DNA from: a virus | Reading direction: 5' to 3' (one strand) | IMG/VR virus record: IMGVR_UViG_3300042519_002162 | Location: 1-32,006 of that record | Length of the DNA: 32,006 bases | In this document: positions 747 to 30,089 of the stretch, piece by piece | Position numbering within the stretch: the first letter of the stretch is position 1 | Layout: each line of letters starts with the position of its first letter | Made by a program: the position numbers and the translations under genes | Notes under the pieces: generated by a model | Seen by the model: the letters and a program-made list of their open reading frames with translations, nothing else | What the model was told of the DNA's origin: nothing | Database searches by the model: none

Positions 747-1193
747 ATGAAACCTATTTTAGCAGTCATGGTTGGTATAAGCGGTTCTGGTAAAAGCACT
801 TTTGCTTCTGGACTAAAAACATCACTCAAAGCCGAGTTGGTGGAAACTGATGCTATTCGGGTTGAATTGACCGGAAATGCCGAAGATCAAAGCCAAAATG
901 GAAAAGTATTTACTATTGCAAAAAAACGTATAAATGATTATCTATCAAATGGCAATAACGCAATTATTGATGCGACAAGTCTTAGTGTAAGAGATCGTAA
1001 AGATTGGATTGAGATTGCTAAATCAAACAACGCAGAAGCGCGTGCATATTTTGTTGATACTCCAGTTGATGTAGCAAAGCGTCAAAACGCAAGTCGTAAG
1101 CGCAAGGTTCCGGAGTTTGTTATAGATAAACAAGCCAGCAAGTTGCAACCTCCTACCAAAGCCGAGGGTTTTGATAGTGTTAGTACGATTTGA
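747..1193 (+). CDS. 5'-hydroxyl polynucleotide kinase domain protein (T4 Pnk-like, no phosphatase)
   Basis: Transfers the ATP gamma-phosphate to a 5'-OH RNA or DNA end. P-loop GISGSGKST spans residues 10-18. Asp35 and Arg38 (motif TDAIR) fall at the positions of the catalytic Asp35 and Arg38 of T4 Pnk. The segment RDRKDWIEIAKS followed by KRQNASRKRKVPEFVI matches the lid region that carries the phosphate-binding Arg in the T4 enzyme. At 148 aa it is only the kinase domain; the C-terminal phosphatase of T4 Pnk is absent. The start codon lies 6 nt after the -10 box with no Shine-Dalgarno sequence. It is the first gene of the replication cluster. With the 2H phosphoesterase (5485) and RNA ligase (9569) it suggests RNA repair. 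Confidence 0.85.
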   Translation: MKPILAVMVGISGSGKSTFASGLKTSLKAELVETDAIRVELTGNAEDQSQNGKVFTIAKKRINDYLSNGNNAIIDATSLSVRDRKDWIEIAKSNNAEARAYFVDTPVDVAKRQNASRKRKVPEFVIDKQASKLQPPTKAEGFDSVSTI

Positions 1194-5484: not shown

Positions 5485-5886
5485 ATGTATTCCGCAATAT
5501 TACTAGACGAAAAATCTCAACTATCATTATCTGCGTGGGCAGATAAGAATATCAAAGTAGATGGTGTTCGCCTTCCTATTTTAGTTAGAGACAATGGATG
5601 GGAAATGGTGTGTCATCATATGACCATTAAATATCCCGGCACACCTGAATTTGTTAAAAAGTATCTTGAGACAGAACAACGCCTTGAAGTTACTCACGTT
5701 GGTATTAGCGACAAAGTAGTTGCTGTGCGTGTAGTTGGATTTCCAAGTGAAAACAAGATTCCACATATTACTGTTGCGGTCAATGTTCGTGGCGGCGGCA
5801 AGCCGGTTATGAGCAACACGATTAAAGATTGGACAGCGGTTGAGAATGGTCCAAAACTTCGCGGTACGGTCAAAGAATTACAATGA
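5485..5886 (+). CDS. 2H phosphoesterase family protein
   Basis: 133 aa with the two signature HxT motifs of 2H phosphoesterases: HHMTIKY (His45, Thr47) and PHITVAVN (His94, Thr96). This fold hydrolyses 2',3'-cyclic phosphate RNA ends (LigT, the CPD domain of fungal tRNA ligase) or cyclic oligonucleotides (phage anti-CBASS Acb1). The GGGKPVMSN segment after the second motif is a Gly-rich loop I recall from phage and tRNA-ligase-type members. It begins 8 bases after the clamp loader stop with no Shine-Dalgarno sequence and overlaps the next gene by 4 bases (ATGA). With the kinase and RNA ligase nearby, RNA end healing is the simplest role; anti-defence cyclic-nucleotide cleavage is the main alternative. 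Confidence 0.8.
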   Translation: MYSAILLDEKSQLSLSAWADKNIKVDGVRLPILVRDNGWEMVCHHMTIKYPGTPEFVKKYLETEQRLEVTHVGISDKVVAVRVVGFPSENKIPHITVAVNVRGGGKPVMSNTIKDWTAVENGPKLRGTVKELQ

Positions 5887-9568: not shown

Positions 9569-10591
9569 ATGAGCGAAAGAAAACTAGCATCTATTCAAAC
9601 AATCACTGAAATCCTACCAATTGAAGGGGCGGATAAGATTGTTTGTGTGAAAATCCTTGGATGGCAGTGTGTTGCATTAAAAACGGAGTTTTCTGTGAAT
9701 GACAAATGTGTATTTTTCGAGATCGACTCTGTGCTACCAATCGCAAGTTGGAACGACCATTTGCGTAAAGAACCAAGTAAACCATTACGTGTTCGCACAA
9801 TTCGACTGAAAGGAACATTAAGTCAAGGACTTGCATTACCGATTTCTATTTTACCAAACGGTGAATATGAAGTGGGCCAGGATGTTAAACAACTCGTTGA
9901 TGTTACTAAATACGAACCTGTTGTACCTGCCCATTTATCCGGCATGGCTAAAGGAAACTTCCCAGCATTTTTACATAAAACCGATGAAACTCGTTTACAA
10001 TCTGAACCAAGAGTACTTGATGAAGCTATATCCAAAGGTCTTGTGTTAGTTGGTACACTCAAGATGGACGGTACCAGTTTTACTGCATACAGAAGAGACG
10101 CCGACTTTGGCGTATGTTCAAGAAATTTGGATTTGAAAGAAACCGAGGACAATGCTCACTGGAAGATGGCTCGCAAGCTTAAACTTGAAGAAATTCTTCG
10201 TAGCGAACCTCGCAATCTTTCTATTCAAGGAGAAATGGTGGGGCCAGGCATTCAAGGCAACCGTATGGGTTTCAAAGAAGTTGATTTATATCTATTCAAC
10301 TTATACGACATTGATACTGGAAAATATGCTGGATACAATGAACTTGTTGAGTTTGGAAAAAAGCACAATATAAAAGTTGTACCGCTTGTTGCACAGAAAG
10401 ATTTTGGTTTTGGTGAAACAGCCACCGTAAGTAAAATGCTTGAAGTTGCTTTGGCTCTAAACTATGACAACGGCACACCAGCCGAAGGCATTGTTTGGCG
10501 TTCTGCTTGTGAAACTTACAGTGAAGTTCTTAAAGGTAGAATGAGTTTTAAAACTATCAGCAATCGCTTCCTTGAAAAATACAAGGAGTAA
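9569..10591 (+). CDS. RNA ligase, DRB0094 (Rnl5-like) family
   Basis: ATP-dependent RNA ligase, 340 aa, with an N-terminal OB-like domain (~1-110) and a C-terminal nucleotidyltransferase domain, the domain order of the Deinococcus DRB0094 ligase. Motif I is LKMDGTSF with nucleophile Lys165; the CSRNLDL segment carries the conserved Arg; IQGEMVGPGIQ is motif III (Glu222); PAEGIVWR is motif IV (Glu306); MSFKTIS is motif V (Lys328). All look intact. It joins 5'-phosphate to 3'-OH RNA ends. With a 5' kinase and a 2H phosphoesterase in the same window and more than 40 tRNA-type genes downstream, tRNA repair is the likely job. It is a single-gene transcript between its own promoter and terminator. 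Confidence 0.93.
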   Translation: MSERKLASIQTITEILPIEGADKIVCVKILGWQCVALKTEFSVNDKCVFFEIDSVLPIASWNDHLRKEPSKPLRVRTIRLKGTLSQGLALPISILPNGEYEVGQDVKQLVDVTKYEPVVPAHLSGMAKGNFPAFLHKTDETRLQSEPRVLDEAISKGLVLVGTLKMDGTSFTAYRRDADFGVCSRNLDLKETEDNAHWKMARKLKLEEILRSEPRNLSIQGEMVGPGIQGNRMGFKEVDLYLFNLYDIDTGKYAGYNELVEFGKKHNIKVVPLVAQKDFGFGETATVSKMLEVALALNYDNGTPAEGIVWRSACETYSEVLKGRMSFKTISNRFLEKYKE

Positions 10592-10721: not shown

Positions 10722-11186
10722 ATGAAACACAAATTCTATATATTTTTAATTATAATAACGGCTTGCGCTTCGTATGCAAGTGACATGGTGCATAGCTTTA
10801 AGTCGGCGACTTTCAATGGAGTAAATTTCTCTAACACAGCTATGACGATTGAAAACTTGGCAAGAACAAGAAAACAATCTATAAAAGAAGTAGCAAAGTC
10901 AGAAGCTGAACAAGCTAAGATACAAGCCTCTAATACGCCGTTAAACACGTTTATAAACAATCTACAGGCTAGAATATACTCACAGTTGGCTTCTCAAGTA
11001 ACTGACCAGATATTCAATTCTAATGGTGCTACGTTTGGCGTTATCAATTTACAGGGCGGTTCTACAATTACTTGGCAACGAAATGGCGATTTTGCTACTT
11101 TATATATTGTAGACCCATCAACAGGAACGACCACACAAATAACCGTGCCAATCGGTTCTTTAAGCACGATACCTGGTGGCGGTTAA
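10722..11186 (+). CDS. csgF: CsgF-like curli assembly protein
   Basis: 154 aa with a signal peptide (FYIFLIIITACASYAS). The mature start MVHSFKSATFNGVNFSN parallels the CsgF N-terminus (MTFQFRNPNFGGNPNNG), the part that plugs into the CsgG pore in E. coli. Next come a helix containing TPLNTFINNLQARIYSQL, matching the CsgF LDNFTQAIQSQIL helix, and a C-terminal beta unit with DFATLYIVDPSTGTTTQITV matching YIVDIANRDGQ...LNVTDRKTGQTSTIQV. The protein should sit at the outer membrane beside CsgG and couple subunit export to nucleation. First gene of a five-gene operon; csgG starts 2 bases after its stop. No csgE or csgD homologue is visible. Confidence 0.85.
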   Translation: MKHKFYIFLIIITACASYASDMVHSFKSATFNGVNFSNTAMTIENLARTRKQSIKEVAKSEAEQAKIQASNTPLNTFINNLQARIYSQLASQVTDQIFNSNGATFGVINLQGGSTITWQRNGDFATLYIVDPSTGTTTQITVPIGSLSTIPGGG

Positions 11187-11188
11187 CA

Positions 11189-11992
11189 ATGAATAAATAT
11201 TTATGCATATTTATTTTACCACTGTTGTTGGCCGGTTGTGCATCTGTACCATCTAGGCCATCAATACTTGAGGTACCAAAGCATCAAGCGTCTCCACTTG
11301 AAAAAGAGCTTATGGGGCTACCTTCACCAGACGGACCAAGAATGACCGTTGCGGTATATTCATATACTGACAAAACTGGACAACGCAAGGTTTTGGATGC
11401 TTATGCTTCATTTTCATCTGCGGTTACTCAAGGTGCCGAGAGCTGGCTGATTGATTCGTTGCGAACTGCGGGTGGAGGATCGTGGTTTCAAGTATTAGAA
11501 AGAGCAAATCTTGATAACATCATCAAAGAGCGTCAGTTGATTAGCCAAACCAGAGAAACATTTCAAGGAAAGAATGCAGAAAAGCTTACACCTATGCTTT
11601 TTGCCGGAGTTATAGCAGAAGGTGGTATCATAGGATATGATTCAAACATTTTAACGGGTGGTGCCGGAGCAAGTGTGCTCGGCATATCATCAAATGCTCA
11701 ATATCGCAAAGATGTAGTTACGGTTTCATTACGATTTGTAAGCGTACAAACAGGAGAAGTACTTTTAAGTGTTGCAGTTACCAAAACAATTTCCAGTGTT
11801 GCAGTATCTGGCAATCTATTCAAATTCTATGAGCATGGAACATTGCCTATAGAGTCTGAACTAGGATTAACAGCAAATGAACCAAACACTATTGCTGTTC
11901 GCAGTGCAATAGACAAAGCCGTTATAGAGATAGTTAATCAAGGCGAGAGAATGAAGCTCTGGAAATTCAACCCTAATAAGAAAACATTATGA
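11189..11992 (+). CDS. csgG: CsgG-like outer-membrane curli secretion lipoprotein
   Basis: 267 aa from the ATG at 11189; lipoprotein signal ending LLLAGC with Cys17 as lipidation site. The body aligns with CsgG along its length: MTVAVYSYTDKTGQRK (CsgG IFVSVYNIQDETGQFK), ASFSSAVTQGA at the pore constriction with the conserved Phe, WFQVLERANLDNIIKERQLI, then IAEGGIIGYDSNILTGGAG, then LRFVSVQTGEVLLSV, and TANEPNTIAVRSAIDKAV. CsgG forms a nonameric channel that exports curli subunits. A longer in-frame reading from 11072 would lack the lipobox context, so I reject it. It overlaps the next gene by ATGA. Isolated csgG/csgF homologues in marine T4-like phages are, as I recall, known; the attached signalling genes are the unusual part. 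Confidence 0.95.
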   Translation: MNKYLCIFILPLLLAGCASVPSRPSILEVPKHQASPLEKELMGLPSPDGPRMTVAVYSYTDKTGQRKVLDAYASFSSAVTQGAESWLIDSLRTAGGGSWFQVLERANLDNIIKERQLISQTRETFQGKNAEKLTPMLFAGVIAEGGIIGYDSNILTGGAGASVLGISSNAQYRKDVVTVSLRFVSVQTGEVLLSVAVTKTISSVAVSGNLFKFYEHGTLPIESELGLTANEPNTIAVRSAIDKAVIEIVNQGERMKLWKFNPNKKTL

Positions 11993-12792
11993 AGAAACTA
12001 ATAACAACACTAGCATTCATATGTTTGGCAAGTATCGGATACGGTCAAAACCAAATATATGTAAATCAAATAACTACCGCTGGTAGTACGACGTTAGTAC
12101 AAGTTGGAAGCCTCAATAAAATTGGAGTTTCTAGCGGCACGCCGTCTGATATAACAGGAGATAACATCCTGTTTGAAATGAGACAAATGGGTAACAACAA
12201 TACCACGGACTTCTCCATCACCGGAGCAAATAACCTAAAGTTGTTATCTGTTGCAACAGGAAATAGCAATACACAAAAATACTACTTGAACGGAGCAAGC
12301 AATAACATGAACATTGCTCTAAATGGTAATAGCAACAGTGTATTGTTCAACAAAGACACGACCGTTGATCATACATCCAACACCGATGACAGCAAAGCAA
12401 CTATGGCTAACTCCGATGTAATATTGAATGTTACTGGTGACTCTAATGTATTGAAGTTTGGTATCAAAGATGCCAACTATAACTACATTGATTATAGTAT
12501 CACTGGTAACTCAAACACTGTTAAATCAACTCAAATTGGTTCAACTGGTGGTGTCGCTGCTAAAGATGGTCATGAACAAAAAGTCACCATCCAAGGAAAC
12601 ACAAACGATCTAACGGTATACCAGTCGGGTGTAGAAAAACAAACATTCCAATATAGTTTGGTAGGAAGTGGGAACACCGTTCGTGTAGTGCAAACTACAA
12701 GTGGTGCAGCGCCTGCTATGACAACCGGTGGAACATCTGGCCCAACGGGTCCAGCAAATCCTACTACTGGTATCAGTCCTCCAACTCCATAA
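11989..12792 (+). CDS. Curlin-like amyloid subunit (CsgA/CsgB-type repeats)
   Basis: 267 aa with a signal peptide (MKKLITTLAFICLASIGYGQ). The mature part has degenerate repeats of about 20-25 residues built around G-x-x-N: MGNNNTTDFSI, TGANNLKLLSV, TGNSNTQKYYL, NGNSNSVLF, TGDSNVLKFGI, TGNSNTVKSTQIG, QGNTNDLTVYQSG, GSGNTVRVVQT. This is the SxGxxNxxxxxQ strand-turn-strand pattern of curlin repeats, forming a beta-solenoid amyloid. The tail is low-complexity Thr/Gly/Pro (TSGPTGPANP), unlike bacterial CsgA. Being directly after csgG, it is the likely export substrate. It could decorate the virion or alter the infected cell's surface; the sequence does not decide between these. Confidence 0.8.
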   Translation: MKKLITTLAFICLASIGYGQNQIYVNQITTAGSTTLVQVGSLNKIGVSSGTPSDITGDNILFEMRQMGNNNTTDFSITGANNLKLLSVATGNSNTQKYYLNGASNNMNIALNGNSNSVLFNKDTTVDHTSNTDDSKATMANSDVILNVTGDSNVLKFGIKDANYNYIDYSITGNSNTVKSTQIGSTGGVAAKDGHEQKVTIQGNTNDLTVYQSGVEKQTFQYSLVGSGNTVRVVQTTSGAAPAMTTGGTSGPTGPANPTTGISPPTP

Positions 12793-12795
12793 GGA

Positions 12796-14004
12796 ATGGT
12801 TGCAAAAGTTATATTGATATTGGCTGGAGTATTATTCTGCTCCAACTTATTCGCCGCAGCCGGTAAAATTACCGAGGTGACTGGTCCTACTCAAGTGACA
12901 AGAAACCAAGATAAAATTGAAGGTAAGGTTGATGTTGGAATAGAAATGGATGATACAATTGAAACGTTAAAAGCGAGAGTTGGAATAACCTTTGAAGACG
13001 GTACTCGGGTTCAATGCACCGAATTCAGTAAGTTGGTTATAGACACATTTGTATATGATCCATCAACTGGTAAAGGAAAATTGGGGTTGAAAGCATCGCT
13101 TGGTACAGTAAGATACGCATCCGGTCTTATCGCAAAAAATAGCAGAGATGAAGTCAAAATAAAAACACCAACTGCATCTGTTGTAGTTCGTGGTACTGAC
13201 TTTTCTCTTACAGTCGATGAGATGGGTAGAAGTTTAATTATTCTTCTACCCTCTCTCGCACAATTTGGTCCTCCTGTTGTTGGTAGTATTGAAGTTAGTA
13301 ATGGATTGGGAACGGTGGTTATGACAAAAGCATATCAAGCAACAATGGTCGCTTCATCTAATGTAGTACCATCTGCACCGGTGTTATTAAATTTAGAAGA
13401 TGAAACAAGTGTGAATAACGGACTTTTATTGGACACACCAAAATCAGTTACGCAATCTGCAAAAGAAGCAAAGAAAGCACCTGTACAGATAAGTAAAGAT
13501 TCGTCGGACGATTCATCCAACAAAAAAGGAACAAAATCGGAATCAAAAGCGGCATCATCTGGAAATTCAAACTCACAATCAACGTCGGTTGCTCAAGTTG
13601 ACAACACATCAACAAGCTCGGCACCGGCAGAAGAGACACAATCTGCTGCATCTACACAGCCGCAAGAAGCGTCAGCTACACTAGCATCTGTATCTTTAGA
13701 TATAAACAAATTACAACCAGAAGTAAACAAATCTATAATCGAGGCAATATCTACAAAAGTTGCTACAGTGAATGCGACGATAGCATCCGCTATTCCTACA
13801 ATAACATTGCCAACATCAACAGTAAACACCGGTTTTACTACAGATGGTACAAGTGCTATTTTGTATGTCAACAATAGCGGAGTGATTTTTTACAAAGTCA
13901 AGGTAGATACGAACGCTACTTTTACAGTTACAGATAAAGATAGCACAAAAGAGTATCCATTAAATTACGGATCTAAGTTGAAAGTTAATATCATACAAAG
14001 ATGA
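12796..14004 (+). CDS. FecR-domain secreted protein
   Basis: 402 aa: signal peptide (ILILAGVLFCSNLFAAAG), then a FecR-type domain (~20-150) with the diagnostic order AGKITEVTGPTQVTR, then DTIETLKARVGITFEDGTRVQC, then KASLGTVRYASGLI and TPTASVVVRGTDFSL. A Ser/Thr/Lys-rich linker (~225-300) and a C-terminal beta region (TLPTSTVNTGFTTDG...) follow. FecR domains act in the periplasm in signal transduction across the envelope. It begins 3 bases after the curlin stop, with AAGGA abutting the ATG, and overlaps the cyclase by ATGA. FecR next to a CHASE2 cyclase is a recurrent bacterial pairing, so the protein is likely the periplasmic partner of the cyclase sensor. Confidence 0.85.
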   Translation: MVAKVILILAGVLFCSNLFAAAGKITEVTGPTQVTRNQDKIEGKVDVGIEMDDTIETLKARVGITFEDGTRVQCTEFSKLVIDTFVYDPSTGKGKLGLKASLGTVRYASGLIAKNSRDEVKIKTPTASVVVRGTDFSLTVDEMGRSLIILLPSLAQFGPPVVGSIEVSNGLGTVVMTKAYQATMVASSNVVPSAPVLLNLEDETSVNNGLLLDTPKSVTQSAKEAKKAPVQISKDSSDDSSNKKGTKSESKAASSGNSNSQSTSVAQVDNTSTSSAPAEETQSAASTQPQEASATLASVSLDINKLQPEVNKSIIEAISTKVATVNATIASAIPTITLPTSTVNTGFTTDGTSAILYVNNSGVIFYKVKVDTNATFTVTDKDSTKEYPLNYGSKLKVNIIQR

Positions 14005-16058
14005 AAAAATATCTGATAAAACTATTTGGTGTTGGCTTGTTGATACTAATTAGTTTAGTCGCACTTCGCGTAATAGACCCATATCCAATTGAAGTTATAC
14101 GCCTAAAAGGGTTGGACTATTATCAACGCACTCAAACTAAAGTTGATAGTGATAATGTTGTGGTTATAGAGATAGATGAAGCTAGTTTAGAAAAGAATGG
14201 ACAATGGCCGTGGCCAAGAACAGAACTGGCAAATGGTATCAAGAAAGCATTTGAAAATGAAGCAGCCGTTGTAGTGCTTCCTATTATATTTGCAGAAAAA
14301 GATAGAATGGGCGGTGATGCTGAATTTGTAGATATGCTACAAAAAGTTCCCGTGATTACATCACAATCGGCATCTGTAAAAGGCAAAGGAGTTCCAGTGC
14401 CAAGAGGACTAGCAACTGTGGGAGGTCAATCTGATGGGTGGTTGTATGACTATCCAAATGCAATTGGACCTGTAAAAGAAATCGGAGAATCTTCGGCTGG
14501 AGTTGGTATGTTGTTAACTGCACCTGAACTTGATGGAGTAGTTCGTCGCTTACCTTTAATAATTCAAGTTAAAAAAGAAACATATCCAACACTATCATTA
14601 GAAGTACTTCGTGTTTTTAGTGGAGAACCAAGTTATCAAGCAAAAATTAATGAAGCAGGTATACAAGCGGTTAGAGTAAAAGGTACAAATCCAATAAACA
14701 CAGATGCTAATGGTAGAGTGTGGATAAATTTCAAGTATAAGTTTGATACAATGTCATATACAGACAATGATTGGTCAAAAGTAAAAGGAAAGATTGTGGT
14801 TATTGCACTAACTGCCGAGGGATTAAGTAATACTGTAGCTACACCTGTTGGAATAGCATATGGTCATGAAGTAAGTATGCAAACACTACAAATGCTTGTT
14901 GATGGAAATAGACTAGAAAGAAAAGCAGAGTTTGATTTATATGAACTAGCCGTTGGTATAACACTTGGATTGATTTTAGTAACATCTGCGGCATATCTTG
15001 GATATGTTTGGAACGCGGCACTGTTAAAAATATTAACTACTGCTATTGTGGTTTCGGGATTTTACTTATTTAGAAACAGCGGATACTTAGTAGATTATAC
15101 ATGGCCATTGATGGCAGCATTTTTACCGTGGGTTGGAGCAATATTCATGAGATTTGTAATGGAGTTTAAACTCAAGATGCAAATCAAGAAACAATTTGGT
15201 ACATATCTAGCACCCGCACTTGTTGAAAAACTACAAAAGAATCCAGGTTTGCTACAACTTGGCGGCGATGAAAAAGAATTAAGCATAATGTTTACAGACG
15301 TGCGGGGATTTACAGCTATATCTGAACACTATGGAAGAAATGTTCAAGGACTTACATCTATAATGAATAGATATATGACTGCTATGACCAGAGCTATTCT
15401 AGCAAATGATGGAACCTTAGATAAGTATATCGGTGACGCTCAGATGGCTTTTTGGAATGCTCCGTTGGACAATCCAAACCATGCTAAAGATGCTGCCAAA
15501 ACTGCATTGTCTATGCTAAAAGAGTTAGACAACTTCAACGCCGAGATAAAAGTCGAAGGTATCCCTGCATTTGGAATGGGGCTAGGTATAAACACCGGAG
15601 ATGTTGTAGTAGGAAACATGGGGTCGGACCAACGATTTGATTATACCTGTCTCGGCGACCATGTTAATCTAGCTTCTCGTCTTGAAGGTCAAAGTAAATC
15701 ATATGGTGTTCGTATTATCATTGGACCAAGAACATATGAATTGATAAAAGATGAATATAGATGCGTTGAATTAGATTGCATCGCGGTAAAAGGAAAGAAA
15801 CAAGGTGTACAAATTTATACGATATTGGAAAATCAAGAAATATCTTCTCGGAGCGTTATACCCTCGGTACATTCAGAATTTCTAAACCAATACAGAGCAC
15901 AGAATTGGGACAAAGCTATCAGCACAGCAAATGTGTTAATGAAGCACAATAAAGAACTCGTGCAATACTATGAGATGATGATAGAAAGAATAGAAGGGCT
16001 ACGAAACAGCAATCTTGATGAAAATTGGGACGGAGTTTTTAGAGCAACCAGCAAATAA
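14001..16058 (+). CDS. CHASE2-domain class III adenylate cyclase (transmembrane)
   Basis: 685 aa. An N-terminal membrane anchor (~5-23) leads to a periplasmic CHASE2 sensor (~25-305, with VVVIEIDEASLEKNGQWPWPR and the AGVGMLLTAPELDGVVRR segment), then three membrane helices (~314-385), then a class III cyclase domain (~425-610). Catalytic residues are present: metal-binding Asp433 (FTDVRGF) and Asp479 (KYIGDAQ), purine-binding Lys475 and Asp547 (FDYTCLGD), and transition-state Asn556 and Arg560 (VNLASRLEG). Lys/Asp at the purine positions indicates ATP rather than GTP. It should turn a periplasmic signal into cAMP. Last gene of the curli operon, followed by a terminator. A plausible effector is encoded at 29433. 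Confidence 0.95.
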   Translation: MKKYLIKLFGVGLLILISLVALRVIDPYPIEVIRLKGLDYYQRTQTKVDSDNVVVIEIDEASLEKNGQWPWPRTELANGIKKAFENEAAVVVLPIIFAEKDRMGGDAEFVDMLQKVPVITSQSASVKGKGVPVPRGLATVGGQSDGWLYDYPNAIGPVKEIGESSAGVGMLLTAPELDGVVRRLPLIIQVKKETYPTLSLEVLRVFSGEPSYQAKINEAGIQAVRVKGTNPINTDANGRVWINFKYKFDTMSYTDNDWSKVKGKIVVIALTAEGLSNTVATPVGIAYGHEVSMQTLQMLVDGNRLERKAEFDLYELAVGITLGLILVTSAAYLGYVWNAALLKILTTAIVVSGFYLFRNSGYLVDYTWPLMAAFLPWVGAIFMRFVMEFKLKMQIKKQFGTYLAPALVEKLQKNPGLLQLGGDEKELSIMFTDVRGFTAISEHYGRNVQGLTSIMNRYMTAMTRAILANDGTLDKYIGDAQMAFWNAPLDNPNHAKDAAKTALSMLKELDNFNAEIKVEGIPAFGMGLGINTGDVVVGNMGSDQRFDYTCLGDHVNLASRLEGQSKSYGVRIIIGPRTYELIKDEYRCVELDCIAVKGKKQGVQIYTILENQEISSRSVIPSVHSEFLNQYRAQNWDKAISTANVLMKHNKELVQYYEMMIERIEGLRNSNLDENWDGVFRATSK

Positions 16059-17531: not shown

Positions 17532-17619
17532 AGAAGGATGGCTGAGTGGCTTAAAGCAGGAGTTTACTAAACTCCCGAAGCGAAAGCTTCCGTGGGTTCG
17601 AATCCCTCTCCTTCTACCA
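17532..17619 (+). tRNA. tRNA-Ser-like(ACT), class II
   Basis: Perfect acceptor AGAAGGA/TCCTTCT, long variable arm GAAGC-GAAA-GCTTC, loop TTACTAA giving anticodon ACT (17566-17568). A34 in this box is unusual; Ser AGY codons are normally read by GCT, which is also present at 25311. A73 rather than the G73 of the other Ser tRNAs here, and one T-T mismatch in the T stem. Confidence 0.75.
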
Positions 17620-17870: not shown

Positions 17871-17873
17871 GTT

Positions 17874-17978
17874 TCGTATGTAGTTCAGAGGTAGACCAGT
17901 GCTCACTATAATGGTAAATGACACCGCAAAAGTGTGATAAAGCACATGCCGTTGGTTCGAATCCAACCATGCGAATCA
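17874..17978 (+). tRNA. tRNA with enlarged anticodon loop (possible Ile(GAT) if 30 nt are removed)
   Basis: Acceptor TCGTATG/CATGCGA, A73, TCA in place of CCA, canonical T arm GTTGG-TTCGAAT-CCAAC. The anticodon stem GTGCT/AGCAC (17899-17903, 17941-17945) encloses 37 nt instead of 7. Keeping C17904 and TGATAA (17935-17940) would give CTGATAA, a perfect Ile(GAT) loop; the 30 nt between contain CAC-CGCAAAA-GTG. The splice idea is inference. A decayed gene is the alternative. Confidence 0.55.
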
Positions 17979-17986
17979 ATTTTACA

Positions 17987-18061
17987 TATATAGTTACGAC
18001 AATTGGCAGACGTTATGAGGCTATAGACTCAAAAGTTTGGGTTCAAATCCCAACTATATAT
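17987..18061 (+). tRNA. tRNA-like, 8-nt anticodon loop, no encoded CCA
   Basis: Acceptor TATATAG/CTATATA continues outward to a 12-bp helix (17984-17995 with 18052-18063) if the T stem opens. T arm TTGGG-TTCAAAT-CCCAA is canonical, D stem ACG/CGT is short. The anticodon arm TGAG/CTCA leaves 8 loop bases, so the anticodon cannot be assigned. No CCA follows. Confidence 0.5.
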
Positions 18062-18447: not shown

Positions 18448-18452
18448 TTAAT

Positions 18453-18574
18453 TTTGATAGTGTATGTGTTTTCGTCTCTAAAATCTTACGGCACATGGAA
18501 GACGTGTAACGGGTTCAAAGTCCGACCACTTTGCATTGAGCAGAGTGAGTAAGCCAACCATATACATTATCAAA
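18453..18574 (+). ncRNA. Structured RNA with long closing stem
   Basis: Closed by TTTGATA/TATCAAA extended by TGTATGTG/CATATACA into about 16 bp. Inside are CGTCT/AGACG, a T-arm-like CGG-GTTCAAAGT-CCG and an 8-bp hairpin CACTTTGC/GCAGAGTG with an ATTGA loop. Not a standard tRNA. Confidence 0.5.
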
Positions 18575-18582
18575 CATTTTAT

Positions 18583-18658
18583 GGGAGTTTGGTGAAGGCG
18601 GTCCTCACGTCGCACTGAAGATGCGAAGAAGTTGGTTCAATTCCAACAGCTCCCACCA
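18583..18658 (+). tRNA. tRNA-Phe(GAA)
   Basis: Acceptor GGGAGTT/AGCTCCC, D stem GTGA/TCAC, anticodon stem TCGCA/TGCGA, loop CTGAAGA (anticodon 18617-18619), T stem GTTGG/CCAAC, A73, CCA. Confidence 0.93.
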
Positions 18659-18745: not shown

Positions 18746-18819
18746 TGGGATATGTTGTAGTGGTAGCAAAGGAGTCTTTGAAACTCTTAGTCTTGGTTCG
18801 ATTCCAAGTATCTCAGCCA
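18746..18819 (+). tRNA. tRNA-Gln(TTG)
   Basis: Acceptor TGGGATA/TATCTCA with the T1-A72 pair and G73 typical of Gln, loop CTTTGAA (anticodon 18778-18780), T stem CTTGG/CCAAG, CCA. Confidence 0.92.
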
Positions 18820-19136: not shown

Positions 19137-20039
19137 ATGCACTTCTTGATTTATAAAATTACTAATAGATTAAACAATAAAATTTATGTTGGTGCTCATA
19201 AGACCAATGACAAAGGTGATGGTTACTTTGGTTCTGGGCTGTTGATTGAGCGGTCCGTGTCTAAACACGGAAAAGAAAATTTCTTCAAAGAAATTCTATT
19301 TGAGTTATCAACAGAAGAGGAGATGTGGCAAAGGGAGCGGGATATCGTTGATGAAACGTTTATTTCTCGCAACGACACGTACAACATTAAGTTGGGAGGT
19401 CACGGTGGATTTGATTATATCAATAAAACAAGAAAAAATATTTATAAAAATCATTCCGAAATTGCAAGAAAAAATTCTGCTAAGAACTTTGTAAGTTCAG
19501 GAGAGACAAAGCGTCGTCTGATATTAGAAGGAAAATGGGGAGAGTATAAGAAAAAATTATCCAATTCAATAAAAGAATCTTACAAGAAACGGGGGAAATC
19601 CCATTGGTTAGGACGACTGCACAGAGAAGAAAGCAAATTTAAAATAGGAGAAAAAAGTAAAATTAATCAATCGGGAAAAAGAAACTCCCAATATGGAACG
19701 AGGATAATATATGAAATGTCAACTGGAAACAAAATGCGGCTTAAATTTGGACAAGAAATCCCTATCGGGTGGGCAAGTTCCGAAGATTGGAAAAAAATAA
19801 CCCAAGAAAAAATAAAAAACTTAAAAGAAAAAACAAAGAGTTTAAAAAAACAACATAATAAAGAAAAATCTAGAAATTATGCGATTCGGTTACACGAAGA
19901 ATATATTAATTCTGGTTGTAGATCATTGAGAGAATTCTGTAAGAGTGGTAAGTATAACCACAGCGTACAAGCGTTAACCATGGCTTGGAAAAAAAACATA
20001 CCGGATATATACAATCCAATTCATGGTAAATCTTATTGA
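19137..20039 (+). CDS. GIY-YIG homing endonuclease inside the tRNA array
   Basis: 300 aa. Catalytic domain at the N-terminus: FLIYKITNRLNNKIYVGAHKT (GIY-YIG variant with IY and YVG), Gly/Tyr-rich DGYFGSGLLIER, and a Glu in REDIV-like WQRERDIVDE. Helical DNA-binding modules follow (SKFKIGEKSKINQSGKRNSQYG and others), then a very basic region (~220-260) and a C-terminal helix-turn-helix-like stretch (SLREFCKSGKYNHSVQALTMAW). Such enzymes often cut conserved sites such as tRNA genes. It directly follows a tRNA-like remnant and is followed 12 bases later by tRNA-Lys(TTT). Confidence 0.88.
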   Translation: MHFLIYKITNRLNNKIYVGAHKTNDKGDGYFGSGLLIERSVSKHGKENFFKEILFELSTEEEMWQRERDIVDETFISRNDTYNIKLGGHGGFDYINKTRKNIYKNHSEIARKNSAKNFVSSGETKRRLILEGKWGEYKKKLSNSIKESYKKRGKSHWLGRLHREESKFKIGEKSKINQSGKRNSQYGTRIIYEMSTGNKMRLKFGQEIPIGWASSEDWKKITQEKIKNLKEKTKSLKKQHNKEKSRNYAIRLHEEYINSGCRSLREFCKSGKYNHSVQALTMAWKKNIPDIYNPIHGKSY

Positions 20040-20651: not shown

Positions 20652-20730
20652 GGCGATATCGTCTATGTTTGGAAAGGACAGGATGTTCTCAACATCAAAA
20701 GCTCGGTTCGACTCCCGAGTATCGCCGCCA
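20652..20730 (+). tRNA. tRNA-Glu(CTC)
   Basis: Acceptor GGCGATA/TATCGCC, D stem GTC/GAC, anticodon stem GATG/CATC with loop TTCTCAA (anticodon 20688-20690), G73, CCA. The T stem CTCGG/CCGAG leaves an 8-nt loop. Confidence 0.85.
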
Positions 20731-20734
20731 TTTT

Positions 20735-20888
20735 TGAGCGGCAGCGTGGAAGGACATGCAGCCTTGAGAAGTTCTATTACGCGCAGTATAGTGTACATAA
20801 AGCTGTGCCTCTGAAACGAAGCGATGACTACCTAATAGATCGGGTCAGATTCAATGTCATCAATAGGTATCAATTCCTATCCGACTCA
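20735..20888 (+). ncRNA. Structured RNA, tRNA-like ends with ~100-nt insert
   Basis: TGAG-CGG pairs with CCG-A-CTCA at the ends. Near the 3' end ATAGG-TATCAATT-CCTAT looks like a T arm. Between are GATGAC/GTCATC and a GGC...GTGCC helix. No CCA and no anticodon arm identified. First member of a 900-nt block of structured RNA with no credible gene. Confidence 0.45.
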
Positions 20889-20895
20889 AATTAAT

Positions 20896-21081
20896 TTCTT
20901 CTGTGTTTATGCAGACCGTTACATTCGCCGACTAAGGTATGGCTCCATGTTGCTAAGAAACTGGGCAATCTTATACCTGTGTAAAAGGTTGCGTTCCTTT
21001 AGGGGGTTTAAGAGCGTAACGCATACAAGTGCATTCATCTTCTGGAAATGTTCTGGAAGACTTGTATGGCAGAAGGATCCA
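20896..21081 (+). ncRNA. Structured RNA with CCA end
   Basis: TTCTTCTG/CAGAAGGA (8 bp) followed by T-CCA, exactly like a tRNA 3' end, but 186 nt long. Inner helices: CGTTAC/GTAACG, AGGTAT/ATACCT, GTTGC/GCAAT, AAAGG-TTGCGTT-CCTTT and ATACAAGT/ACTTGTAT (8 bp) around TCTTC/GAAGA. Not tmRNA: no consensus T arm and no tag ORF. Confidence 0.5.
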
Positions 21082-21294: not shown

Positions 21295-21307
21295 TAATTT
21301 TTGTTGA

Positions 21308-21585
21308 GGAGGTTGGCCTAGAGGCAGCAATCCTATAATGAGTAGAGTCCGTACTCTCAGTGAGTAAAAATGCAGCGATGAATTCTTGAATTCTGCATTT
21401 TCCATTACCAACTATAATGGTTTTGCTCGGAGGCAATTCAGACGATTGAACCGATAAGAACTAAGGAATTGACCTTAGCTCGGTGCCGAAACAGTAAGCG
21501 CAAGTGTAGTTGTTATATGCTTGGCCGCGAAACGGTGTCAGCTCTTTTGGCGTAATAGCACACTCTTCAAATAACTCATGCCTCC
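21308..21585 (+). ncRNA. Large structured RNA, ~278 nt
   Basis: GGAGG/CCTCC at the ends. Arms visible: GCC-TAGA-GGC, AGAGT/ACTCT, AAAATGCA/TGCATTTT enclosing the palindrome pair GAATTC-TT-GAATTC, ACCGA/TCGGT enclosing CTAAGG-AATTGA-CCTTAG, and AAGC/GCTT. Largest of the block. Position beside a phage tRNA array recalls the GOLLD/ROOL class of large RNAs, but I cannot confirm membership. Confidence 0.5.
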
Positions 21586-21599
21586 ACACGGAAGAAAGT

Positions 21600-21706
21600 T
21601 GGTAGATGGCACGGGAAACCGCCAACCATCTAGCCTACCATGAGTATAATTTTAACATACACAGTAGTCCTCTTGATTTACGTCAATGACAATAATGGCT
21701 GTGTGA
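21600..21706 (+). ncRNA. Hairpin pair closing the structured block
   Basis: TAGATGG/CCATCTA around CGG-GAAA-CCG (21600-21640 region, GGTAG/CTACC also pair), then ACACAG/CTGTGT enclosing GTC/GAC and TTGA-TTTACG-TCAA. No T-run follows either. They immediately precede tRNA-Asp. Confidence 0.4.
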
Positions 21707-21906: not shown

Positions 21907-21919
21907 ATTTATAATTTAC

Positions 21920-22001
21920 AGAGAGTTAAGGGTACTGCCACCGGGCTTACGCGGTGGGTTCACGTAGCCTAATAAGCACACATGACCAAACACTCTCTCC
22001 A
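21920..22001 (+). ncRNA. tRNA-like RNA with CCA end
   Basis: AGAGAGT/ACTCTCT then CCA. Central hairpin CCACCG-GGCTTACG-CGGTGG has a strong stem and 8-nt loop. A TTCACGT stretch sits near the T-loop position but its stem is poor. tRNA length and CCA end, but no assignable anticodon. Confidence 0.4.
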
Positions 22002-22031
22002 TTTTGATTCCGATTAATTACCGGAGTTAAG

Positions 22032-22179: not shown

Positions 22180-22434
22180 ATGAACATATCACCTATACAA
22201 CCATCGGCTGGAATAAATAGTTCGCCAATAAACATTGAAACTGCGGCAAAGATATACAATAAAAATAGTCCAATGTCTATGCACACAAGTGCGGCTGGAT
22301 TTTTTGCTGGCGCAGATGTTGATATTGTATATGATCTTAAAAAAGCTTTGATGGCTGCAATAGATCGCGGCGATTTTGATAAAGCTATTTATATTTTAAA
22401 GTGTCTACAAGAAATAGGCTTTAGTAAGTTATAA
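22180..22434 (+). CDS. Small hypothetical protein (84 aa)
   Basis: Clear start after an AT-rich promoter-like tract (TATAAT at 22154-22159, CAATAT at 22165-22170). The N-terminal half is Ser/Pro/Asn-rich and probably disordered (NISPIQPSAGINSSP); the C-terminal half is a likely helical hairpin (IVYDLKKALMAAIDRG, then DFDKAIYILKCLQEIG) resembling a tetratricopeptide-like pair. Located between a tRNA-like unit and the interrupted tRNA at 22444. No family recognised. Confidence 0.6.
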   Translation: MNISPIQPSAGINSSPINIETAAKIYNKNSPMSMHTSAAGFFAGADVDIVYDLKKALMAAIDRGDFDKAIYILKCLQEIGFSKL

Positions 22435-22437
22435 ATA
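22430..22437 (+). promoter_or_regulatory. TATAAATA motif 6 nt before the interrupted tRNA
   Basis: Exact T4 late core overlapping the stop region of the 22180 gene. The tRNA at 22444 begins 6 bases after it, the usual distance to a late transcription start, so this tRNA could be made with its natural 5' end. Confidence 0.4.
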
Positions 22438-22443
22438 AATTAT

Positions 22444-22564
22444 TGGGATATGGTGTAATGGTAACACAGACGACTTTTTCATATCTGGAGATTCACAAGT
22501 GTGAGAAGGTTCGATTCCTTCAATGACTCGTCTATTCATGGTTCAAATCCATGTATCCCAGCCA
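22444..22564 (+). tRNA. Interrupted tRNA-Gln(TTG) with ~47-nt anticodon-loop insertion
   Basis: Every other part is canonical: acceptor TGGGATA/TATCCCA with T1-A72, G2-C71, G3-C70 and G73 (Gln identity set), D stem GTGT/ACAC, T arm CATGG-TTCAAAT-CCATG, CCA. The anticodon stem GACGA/TCGTC (22469-22473, 22528-22532) encloses 54 nt. Removing 22478-22524 leaves CTTTGAC, a 7-nt loop with T33 and anticodon TTG, nearly identical to the loop of tRNA-Gln at 18746. The insert folds as TCACA/TGTGA plus GAAGG-TTCGATT-CCTTC, a second perfect T arm. Far too short for a group I intron. Confidence 0.75.
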
Positions 22565-22605
22565 ATACAGAGTTGATGGGCGACGCAGACATTTTTAGAA
22601 TTTAT

Positions 22606-22680
22606 GGTGTGGTAGAACAATGGTAGTTCACCGTCTTGATAAGGCGTTGGTTGTGGGTTCGACTCCCACCCGCACCACCA
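22606..22680 (+). tRNA. tRNA-Ile(GAT)
   Basis: Acceptor GGTGTGG/CCGCACC, D stem GAAC/GTTC, anticodon stem CGTC/GGCG, loop TTGATAA (anticodon 22638-22640), T stem GTGGG/CCCAC, A73, CCA. Confidence 0.92.
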
Positions 22681-22772
22681 GCTTACCCGAAGCATCCCTC
22701 TCTTATGTAAAAATAATGATGGAGTCAATCTGAACAAACAGATGATGCTATATGACGATATAGCTAGGGCAA
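22681..22772 (+). ncRNA. Structured spacer RNA
   Basis: AGCATC/GATGCT encloses ATCTG-AACAAA-CAGAT, followed by the perfect hairpin GCTATAT-GACG-ATATAGC. No tRNA features, no ORF. Confidence 0.4.
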
Positions 22773-22780
22773 TCTTTTAT

Positions 22781-22858
22781 AGTCGTCTAGTTCATCTGGT
22801 TGAAGACACTTGCTCGACATGCAAGAATAGGTGAGTTCGATTCTCGCGGCGACTACCA
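22781..22858 (+). tRNA. tRNA-Val(GAC)
   Basis: Acceptor AGTCGTC/GGCGACT, anticodon stem CTTGC/GCAAG, loop TCGACAT (anticodon 22816-22818), T stem GTGAG/CTCGC, A73, CCA. Base 33 is C instead of the near-universal T, so decoding may be altered. Confidence 0.82.
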
Positions 22859-22992: not shown

Positions 22993-23403
22993 TTATTCGT
23001 GCAGGTTTTTCAAACGATATCTTCGTTTATAAGTTGCCCGTTTTGTGTTCTTTACATTCCTTCCACAATAAGTATCAGTTTGAGAATGACAGTTTGGACA
23101 AAGAAATCTCAAATTTGAGGGAAAATTGTTGTCAGAGTTTCCGTCTATATGGTCGATGTGCAATGCTATATTCTTTCCATTCCAATTCAATAGGTTGCAG
23201 ATATTACATTTATATCCACCATTGTTCTCCGTTAAATAACGTTTCAATGTCAATGGGTGATGAACCTTTCCGTCCTCTATACGAGGTTTGGTTATGGTTT
23301 TATATTGATAGTCCAATTGACATCTGTTACTACAATATTTGCCGGTCTGTTGAGACGGCATAAACACAAATTCTTTACTACAATTTTTACAGTTTGATTT
23401 CAT
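22993..23403 (-). CDS. HNH homing endonuclease, antisense within the tRNA array
   Basis: 136 aa from the ATG at 23403. N-terminal zinc-finger pairs: CKNC near the start and YCSNRC about 20 residues on. The HNH core is LHIDHIDGNSDNNFPSNLRFLCPNCHSQT, with His-Ile-Asp-His as the metal site and the Asn and final His of the beta-beta-alpha-metal fold, plus a KCNIC/CPNC zinc pair around it. The basic tail (KRATYKRRYRLKNL) should bind DNA. I prefer the internal start because TATTTATT sits 3 bases upstream of it on the minus strand; a longer version from 23430 adds nine residues. It lies between tRNA-Ala, which ends 2 bases before it, and tRNA-Val. Typical of a selfish insertion. Confidence 0.9.
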   Translation of the reverse strand: MKSNCKNCSKEFVFMPSQQTGKYCSNRCQLDYQYKTITKPRIEDGKVHHPLTLKRYLTENNGGYKCNICNLLNWNGKNIALHIDHIDGNSDNNFPSNLRFLCPNCHSQTDTYCGRNVKNTKRATYKRRYRLKNLHE

Positions 23404-23406
23404 ATC

Positions 23407-23414
23407 AATAAATA
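23407..23414 (-). promoter_or_regulatory. Late-promoter-like motif of the HNH gene
   Basis: TATTTATT on the minus strand, 3 bases before the ATG at 23403; orientation matches the gene. Confidence 0.45.
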
Positions 23415-23457
23415 TTAGACCGAATGACAAAAAACACTTGGTCTAACAACATTTTAC

Positions 23458-29432: not shown

Positions 29433-30089
29433 ATGGCTAAGAAAATTAAAGTAAATGTAGCAGATATATCAAACAGCTCTTTGTTTGCAGGAGTTCCGGC
29501 AAAAGTATTAAAGAATGTACCAAAGATTTGTACAATGAAAGAATACTCGGCTGGCTCAACAATAATAAACGAAGGTGAAAAAGGAGATTTTATGTTTGTT
29601 ATAGTAGATGGTCAAGTAGATGTACTAAAAGGACCAAAGAAGATGAAACTAGCAACTCTTGGTAAAGGAGTATTTCTAGGAGAAGGTGCTCTTGTTAGCA
29701 AAGCACCAAGAAACGCAAGTATTGTTGCAAAAGATAATGTTAAACTTGCTGTATTTGACCAAGCCGGATTTGATAAACTTTCAGTTATGCATCCATGTAT
29801 TCCGGTCACTATGATGAACGTTCATAATGAGCGTTGCAAAGACACAGTGCGCAAAATGAATGTAGCAAAGTCAAAAGAATTTATATTGATGGCTGGTGTT
29901 GGACTATTACTTTTTATACAAAACTCACATAGTATATTGCCAGAAAATCTACACCCTATAGCAGACCAATTGGCTAGTTATATTCCAGATCAATTGATGG
30001 CATTAGGTGGCCCCGCTGCTGCGGCAATGGGACTAAAGCTCAAGCAACTAGAAATGAGTAGTATTGTTTCTAAACTAGACAAGATTTAA
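29433..30089 (+). CDS. Cyclic-nucleotide-binding domain protein with C-terminal membrane segment
   Basis: 218 aa. The N-terminal ~120 residues are a CAP-family cNMP-binding fold: LFAGVPAKVLKNV, then AGSTIINEGEKGDFMFVIVDGQVDV, then the phosphate-binding cassette GVFLGEGALVSKAPRNASI with Glu84 and Arg93, the residues that hold the ribose and cyclic phosphate. No helix-turn-helix follows, so it is not a CRP-type regulator. Instead a hydrophobic helix (~150-163, FILMAGVGLLLFIQ) and an amphipathic C-terminal region follow, suggesting a membrane-attached effector. The phage's own adenylate cyclase (14001) could supply its ligand. The target of its signal is unknown. Confidence 0.88.
   Translation: MAKKIKVNVADISNSSLFAGVPAKVLKNVPKICTMKEYSAGSTIINEGEKGDFMFVIVDGQVDVLKGPKKMKLATLGKGVFLGEGALVSKAPRNASIVAKDNVKLAVFDQAGFDKLSVMHPCIPVTMMNVHNERCKDTVRKMNVAKSKEFILMAGVGLLLFIQNSHSILPENLHPIADQLASYIPDQLMALGGPAAAAMGLKLKQLEMSSIVSKLDKI

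Follow-up and report, generated by a model that had tools for sequence, protein, structure and literature searches.

The window analysed here, a stretch of 32,006 nucleotides from a viral record, contains a gene for tRNA-Gln(TTG) which is split by 47 nt inside its anticodon (Table 1). ARAGORN missed this gene when it was run without the intron option, and the call appeared only with introns allowed. The part upstream of the insert comprises the 5' strand of the acceptor stem, the D-arm, the 5' strand of the anticodon stem and the loop nucleotides C32, U33, U34 and U35, and the downstream part continues with G36, A37 and C38, the 3' strand of the anticodon stem, the variable loop, the T-arm, the 3' strand of the acceptor stem, G73 and an encoded CCA end. 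The insert is located between U35 and G36 or, owing to a one-T ambiguity of the junction (22477 or 22478), between positions 34 and 35, and 54 nt are enclosed by the two strands of the anticodon stem. The remainder of the gene is undamaged, as illustrated by the acceptor stem TGGGATA/TATCCCA, G73 and CCA, the D-arm GTGT/ACAC, the anticodon stem GACGA/TCGTC and the T-arm CATGG..CCATG; the computed pair probabilities of these arms are ~0.8–0.95. The original prediction had described both the arms and the splitting of the anticodon in this way from the letters alone, and re-inspection, the ARAGORN call and the comparison with relatives (see below) bear it out. The window also codes for a second, uninterrupted tRNA-Gln(TTG), whose presence would make the interrupted copy dispensable for decoding. 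Further genes are found in a run at 10722–16058, coding for CsgG (curli transport), FecR-domain and CHASE2-adenylate cyclase proteins, which together with a gene for a cNMP-binding protein at 29433–30089 might represent a phage-borne cyclic nucleotide module.

Table 1. Features of the window considered in this analysis, with positions counted from its first nucleotide.
Feature	Position	Strand	Basis
P-loop kinase, polynucleotide-kinase type (AAA_33)	747..1193	+	Pfam E 7e-26
2H phosphoesterase	5485..5886	+	Pfam tRNA_lig_CPD E 5e-4, 20 bits vs. cut-off 23
ATP-dependent RNA ligase with PHA02142 OB-fold domain	9569..10591	+	Pfam RNA_ligase E 1e-24; PHROG 968 RNA ligase
tRNA-like RNA, ~103 nt, without consistent anticodon	17873-17975	+	Covariation, contig search
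Second, uninterrupted tRNA-Gln(TTG)	18746..18819	+	ARAGORN; Rfam tRNA 60.5 bits
tRNA-Gln(TTG) with 47-nt insert	22444-22564	+	ARAGORN, introns allowed: i(35,47)
5' part of tRNA-Gln(TTG)	22444..22477	+	ARAGORN i(35,47); equals 5' part of uninterrupted tRNA-Gln of L008
47-nt insert (TTCATATCTGGAGATTCACAAGTGTGAGAAGGTTCGATTCCTTCAAT)	22478..22524	+	Absent in L003, L006, L007, L008; present in L004, L005, L009
Hairpin of insert, TCATAT (22479-22484) with GTGTGA (22499-22504)	22479..22504	+	MFE fold
T-arm copy in insert, GAAGG TTCGATT CCTTC	22505..22521	+	Shuffle test
3' part of tRNA-Gln	22525..22564	+	ARAGORN; identity to L008 tRNA

Scanning viral contigs with the 5' half of the tRNA-Gln gene, we obtained seven matching contigs, four of which (L003, L006, L007 and L008) carry the gene uninterrupted and lack exactly the 47 nt at CTTT^GAC. 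The joined halves of the window gene are identical at 74 of 74 positions to the tRNA of the distant relative L008, which agrees with the expectation that excision of the insert yields a normal glutamine tRNA. The other three contigs contain the insert: two of them (L004 and L005, insert 100% identical) belong to the lineage of the window and are identical to it over 14 kb, and the third (L009) shares the tRNA body (74/74) and 46 of the 47 insert nucleotides, the single substitution being G to A at 22499. Within 100 nt on each side of the gene, L009 and the window are only ~55–60% identical (53–55 of ~92 bases), which corresponds to background, and the downstream flank of L009 matches that of the empty site in L003 at 96 of 98 positions. 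Relatives with and without the insert, as called for by the original prediction, were thus both found, and the insertion polymorphism is real and seen in independent assemblies. We rejected an assembly error as its cause because the insert is present in three further contigs, one of which has unrelated flanks and a substitution. Since the interrupted allele sits in two unrelated contexts, it would most simply have moved as a roughly gene-sized unit. No second tRNA-Gln was seen in the 10.5-kb fragment of L009. Regarding the possibility, raised together with the original prediction, of a random scar in a dead gene, the gene has lost its anticodon as a pseudogene may have, and its body shows no decay, being identical in the window, L009 and L008. 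The undecayed body and the recurrence of the allele in a second lineage argue against old decay, not against recent inactivation.

The insert itself has tRNA-like content. It contains a complete copy of a T-arm, as had been noted from the sequence, and shuffling the insert 300,000 times gave a perfect T-arm in only 44 cases; because of this rarity, a tRNA or a tRNA-like gene is its most likely source. The second element of the proposed fold, a TCACA/TGTGA helix, is better drawn as the hairpin listed in Table 1, which shows pair probabilities of 0.82 in the window and 0.74 in L009. The A at 22499 in L009 converts a G-U into an A-U pair of this hairpin, a single substitution which proves nothing by covariation. 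The whole insert does not fold unusually well (z ~ −1.5, with 7% of the shuffles equally stable), and two rival folds are available: in one, the 6-bp hairpin precedes the T-arm, and in the other, CTTTTTCATAT pairs with GTGTGAGAAGG in an 11-bp helix, which spans the 5' junction, absorbs the CTTT of the anticodon loop and competes with the T-arm of the insert.

A donor of the insert was not found in any of the loci, the seven related records, the viral contigs or the genome contigs. Apart from the known copies, the viral contigs contained no further copy of the insert and the genome contigs none at all; nothing resembling it was present in the phage collection, and a match in L039 was dismissed as chance because it lies in a region without tRNA. 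We considered a copy of the 3' half of another tRNA, composed of the loop-like start TTCATAT and the T-arm, and rejected it because the first 27 nt of the insert matched 208 distinct tRNAs from these phages no better than shuffles did (p 0.38). The best match of the whole insert was with a tRNA-Arg(acg) and rested mainly on the T-arm. The possibility that the insert was copied from the inner domain of the tRNA-like RNA at 17873–17975 was likewise discarded, as the match was weak with the window copy (p 0.03) and absent with that of L008. Among the open-licence literature, we found no paper describing phage tRNAs with a short insert in the anticodon.

The array surrounding the interrupted gene consists of 35 tRNAs identified by ARAGORN, interleaved with noncoding blocks in a mosaic and heavily rearranged order. 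The noncoding blocks are 79–100% identical between phages and most proteins 63–82%; tRNA genes and noncoding blocks frequently reach 90–100%. Several noncoding blocks of the window (18450–18596, 20728–20897, 21295–21652, 21913–22007 and 22674–22781) are 83–100% identical to those of distant relatives, with 98–100% for the block at 20728–20897, and some of the blocks show T-arm-like hairpins and pairing ends when inspected by eye. The blocks between the tRNAs are likely to represent further structured RNAs of the array. The segment at 17983–18061 is tRNA-shaped with a 9-bp acceptor stem (ATATATAGT/ACTATATAT), a perfect T-arm (18037) and an irregular anticodon arm, and ARAGORN makes no call for it. 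A probable tRNA-Glu(CTC) at 20652–20732 is called by ARAGORN in the homologues of L007 and L008 (91.6% identical), not in the window. The tRNA-Ser at 17532–17619 has the anticodon ACT, which is shared by L015, L020 and L022 and replaced by GCT in L018 and L034.

One member of the array is a tRNA-like RNA at 17873–17975, which has an acceptor stem of 8–9 bp and a T-arm; where a tRNA would have its anticodon arm, it carries a structured domain whose core is TATRATGGYAWAWGACRCCGMRAAAG. All of its 28 pairs are kept in all 11 sequences and 11 pairs are changed on both sides, compared to 4 at most in slid controls. It is present in 24 viral contigs (copies include L008:9393-9499, L018:4186-4292, L020:10570-10672 and L033:10801-10907) and was found in no genome contig and without a match in the phage collection. 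ARAGORN labels it as Met, Ile, Asn or Arg with introns of 13–33 nt; because the label varies by phage, the RNA has no consistent anticodon. A link to Y RNA and Ro was rejected, since no TROVE protein was present in three related records. From the sequences, we conclude that anticodon-less tRNA-like RNAs are maintained in this array, and on this basis it is plausible that the interrupted tRNA-Gln ended up as a non-decoding RNA.

Taking these observations together, we consider it probable that the locus codes for a recombination-made, anticodon-less tRNA-like RNA, which would be either a recent pseudogene or a young tRNA-like RNA. A recombination or template-switching event would have pasted a tRNA-derived piece of 47 nt into the anticodon of tRNA-Gln, within an array that undergoes continual reshuffling of its cassettes. 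Judging from the intact acceptor, D and T arms and the CCA end, the product is presumably transcribed and trimmed like a tRNA; it would stay unspliced and, having no anticodon, would not decode Gln codons. It may then be a recent pseudogene, tolerated because the tRNA-Gln(TTG) gene at 18746 is intact; alternatively, it may have newly joined the tRNA-like RNAs without an anticodon that this array maintains, such as that at 17873–17975. Several points speak against this explanation: the insert has no donor in our searches and a beginning that resembles no tRNA of these phages, the tRNA body is without decay in either lineage and there is no need for a dead gene to be passed on, and the second tRNA-Gln that is seen in the window is not among the genes of the L009 fragment.

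An unlikely alternative, which was also put forward in the original prediction, is a decoy: the uncut 121-nt RNA would be selected as bait for a candidate host anticodon nuclease, tRNA-modifying enzyme or tRNA-binding factor, and the second T-arm would serve as an added binding site. The undecayed body and the spread of the allele to a second lineage are consistent with such selection, as is the conserved RNA at 17873–17975, which is tRNA-like and lacks a consistent anticodon, although the insert shares only a short, weakly significant match with the latter. Moreover, phage tRNAs have been proposed to be shaped by host anticodon nucleases via changes in the anticodon loop (van den Berg 2023, PMC10264068). 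The loops of those tRNAs depart from the host norm as the present one does, but they carry small changes and still decode, whereas the 47 nt found here remove the anticodon. Only two versions of the insert are known, one substitution apart, which are too few to measure selection.

Still less probable is a protein-spliced mini-intron, which had been the other inference from the sequence. It would require a putative endonuclease of the phage or the host to cut at U35^U and U^G36, and the 2H protein, kinase and ligase of the phage to heal and seal the ends. The position in the anticodon loop of a tRNA with all other elements intact and the preservation of the allele in two lineages fit this scheme, and excision would yield exactly the extant empty tRNA, though this applies to any insertion. 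As judged by sequence, the window indeed codes for proteins with the kinase, 2H phosphoesterase and ligase functions known from the fungal-type tRNA-ligase pathway, and profile searches recovered all three proteins named in the original prediction; the 2H protein shows a weak resemblance to the phosphodiesterase domain of fungal tRNA ligase, which is below the curated cut-off. However, these repair genes do not track the insert, because the 297-kb record of L003 has an empty site together with kinase, 2H protein and ligase, and the record of L008, also with an empty site, contains the ligase and the 2H protein. The same set of enzymes (kinase, phosphoesterase and RNA ligase, as in T4-type tRNA repair) has been described in jumbo phages, where its proposed role is the repair of tRNAs after cleavage by host nucleases (PMC7824862), and such a use explains the presence of these genes without reference to the insert.

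The insert also differs from each of the known intron types. To our knowledge, bacterial tRNA introns, those of group II included, are known solely as self-splicing elements. As had been stated from the sequence alone, the insert is no group I or II intron: group I introns of bacterial or phage tRNA genes likewise interrupt the anticodon loop of a bacterial-type tRNA, but the present insert has only 47 nt and no ribozyme core, and cmscan found no intron family in 22400–22620 at E values up to 10. A self-splicing intron or a known RNA family was therefore ruled out. Archaeal and eukaryotic tRNA introns share the short insert in the anticodon loop and the intact tRNA body, but those are canonically located at 37/38 and processed by a splicing endonuclease at a bulge-helix-bulge motif, whereas the insert of this bacterial virus is at 35/36 (or 34/35) and reaches at most 2 of 4 helix pairs at any placement of the junctions; a bulge-helix-bulge intron was rejected, in line with the poor fit already predicted. 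In addition, one of the two competing folds buries the 5' junction in a helix. Neither a tRNA-intron endonuclease (tRNA_int_endo, PF01974) nor RtcB was detected in three related viral records, one of them 297 kb long. The known bacterial tRNA introns are described as self-splicing only (PMC4090602). We also analysed the relatives for further interrupted tRNAs in their arrays, applying a two-piece BLAST to every tRNA as well as ARAGORN with introns of up to 3 kb, and neither search revealed one outside the 17873–17975 family; the BLAST yielded one weak pair, the tRNA-Cys of L020 against L033, with a gap of 862 nt. Protein splicing of the tRNA-Gln is thus not supported, and only the position of the insert and the repair genes speak for it.

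Least probable of all is a protective scar, in which a homing endonuclease of the array would have cut the anticodon region of tRNA-Gln, and mending of the break with filler DNA would have produced an allele resistant to cutting, which then spread by recombination. A homing-endonuclease gene (19137–20039, PHROG E 8e-36) and an HNH-like gene (22993–23430) are present in the array, and introns destroying attachment sites in tRNA genes are described for Sulfolobus (PMC4090602), but no donor of the filler was found in the viral contigs, in the genome contigs or among the seven related records.

Because related phages carry one tRNA gene in both a filled and an empty form, a rare question becomes directly testable, namely whether a bacterial virus splices a tRNA by proteins or keeps up tRNA-shaped RNAs that do not take part in translation. 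If the mini-intron were real, it would represent a protein-dependent pathway of tRNA splicing in a bacterial system. The RNA at 17873–17975, for its part, supports the idea that phage tRNA arrays hold RNAs with non-decoding jobs.
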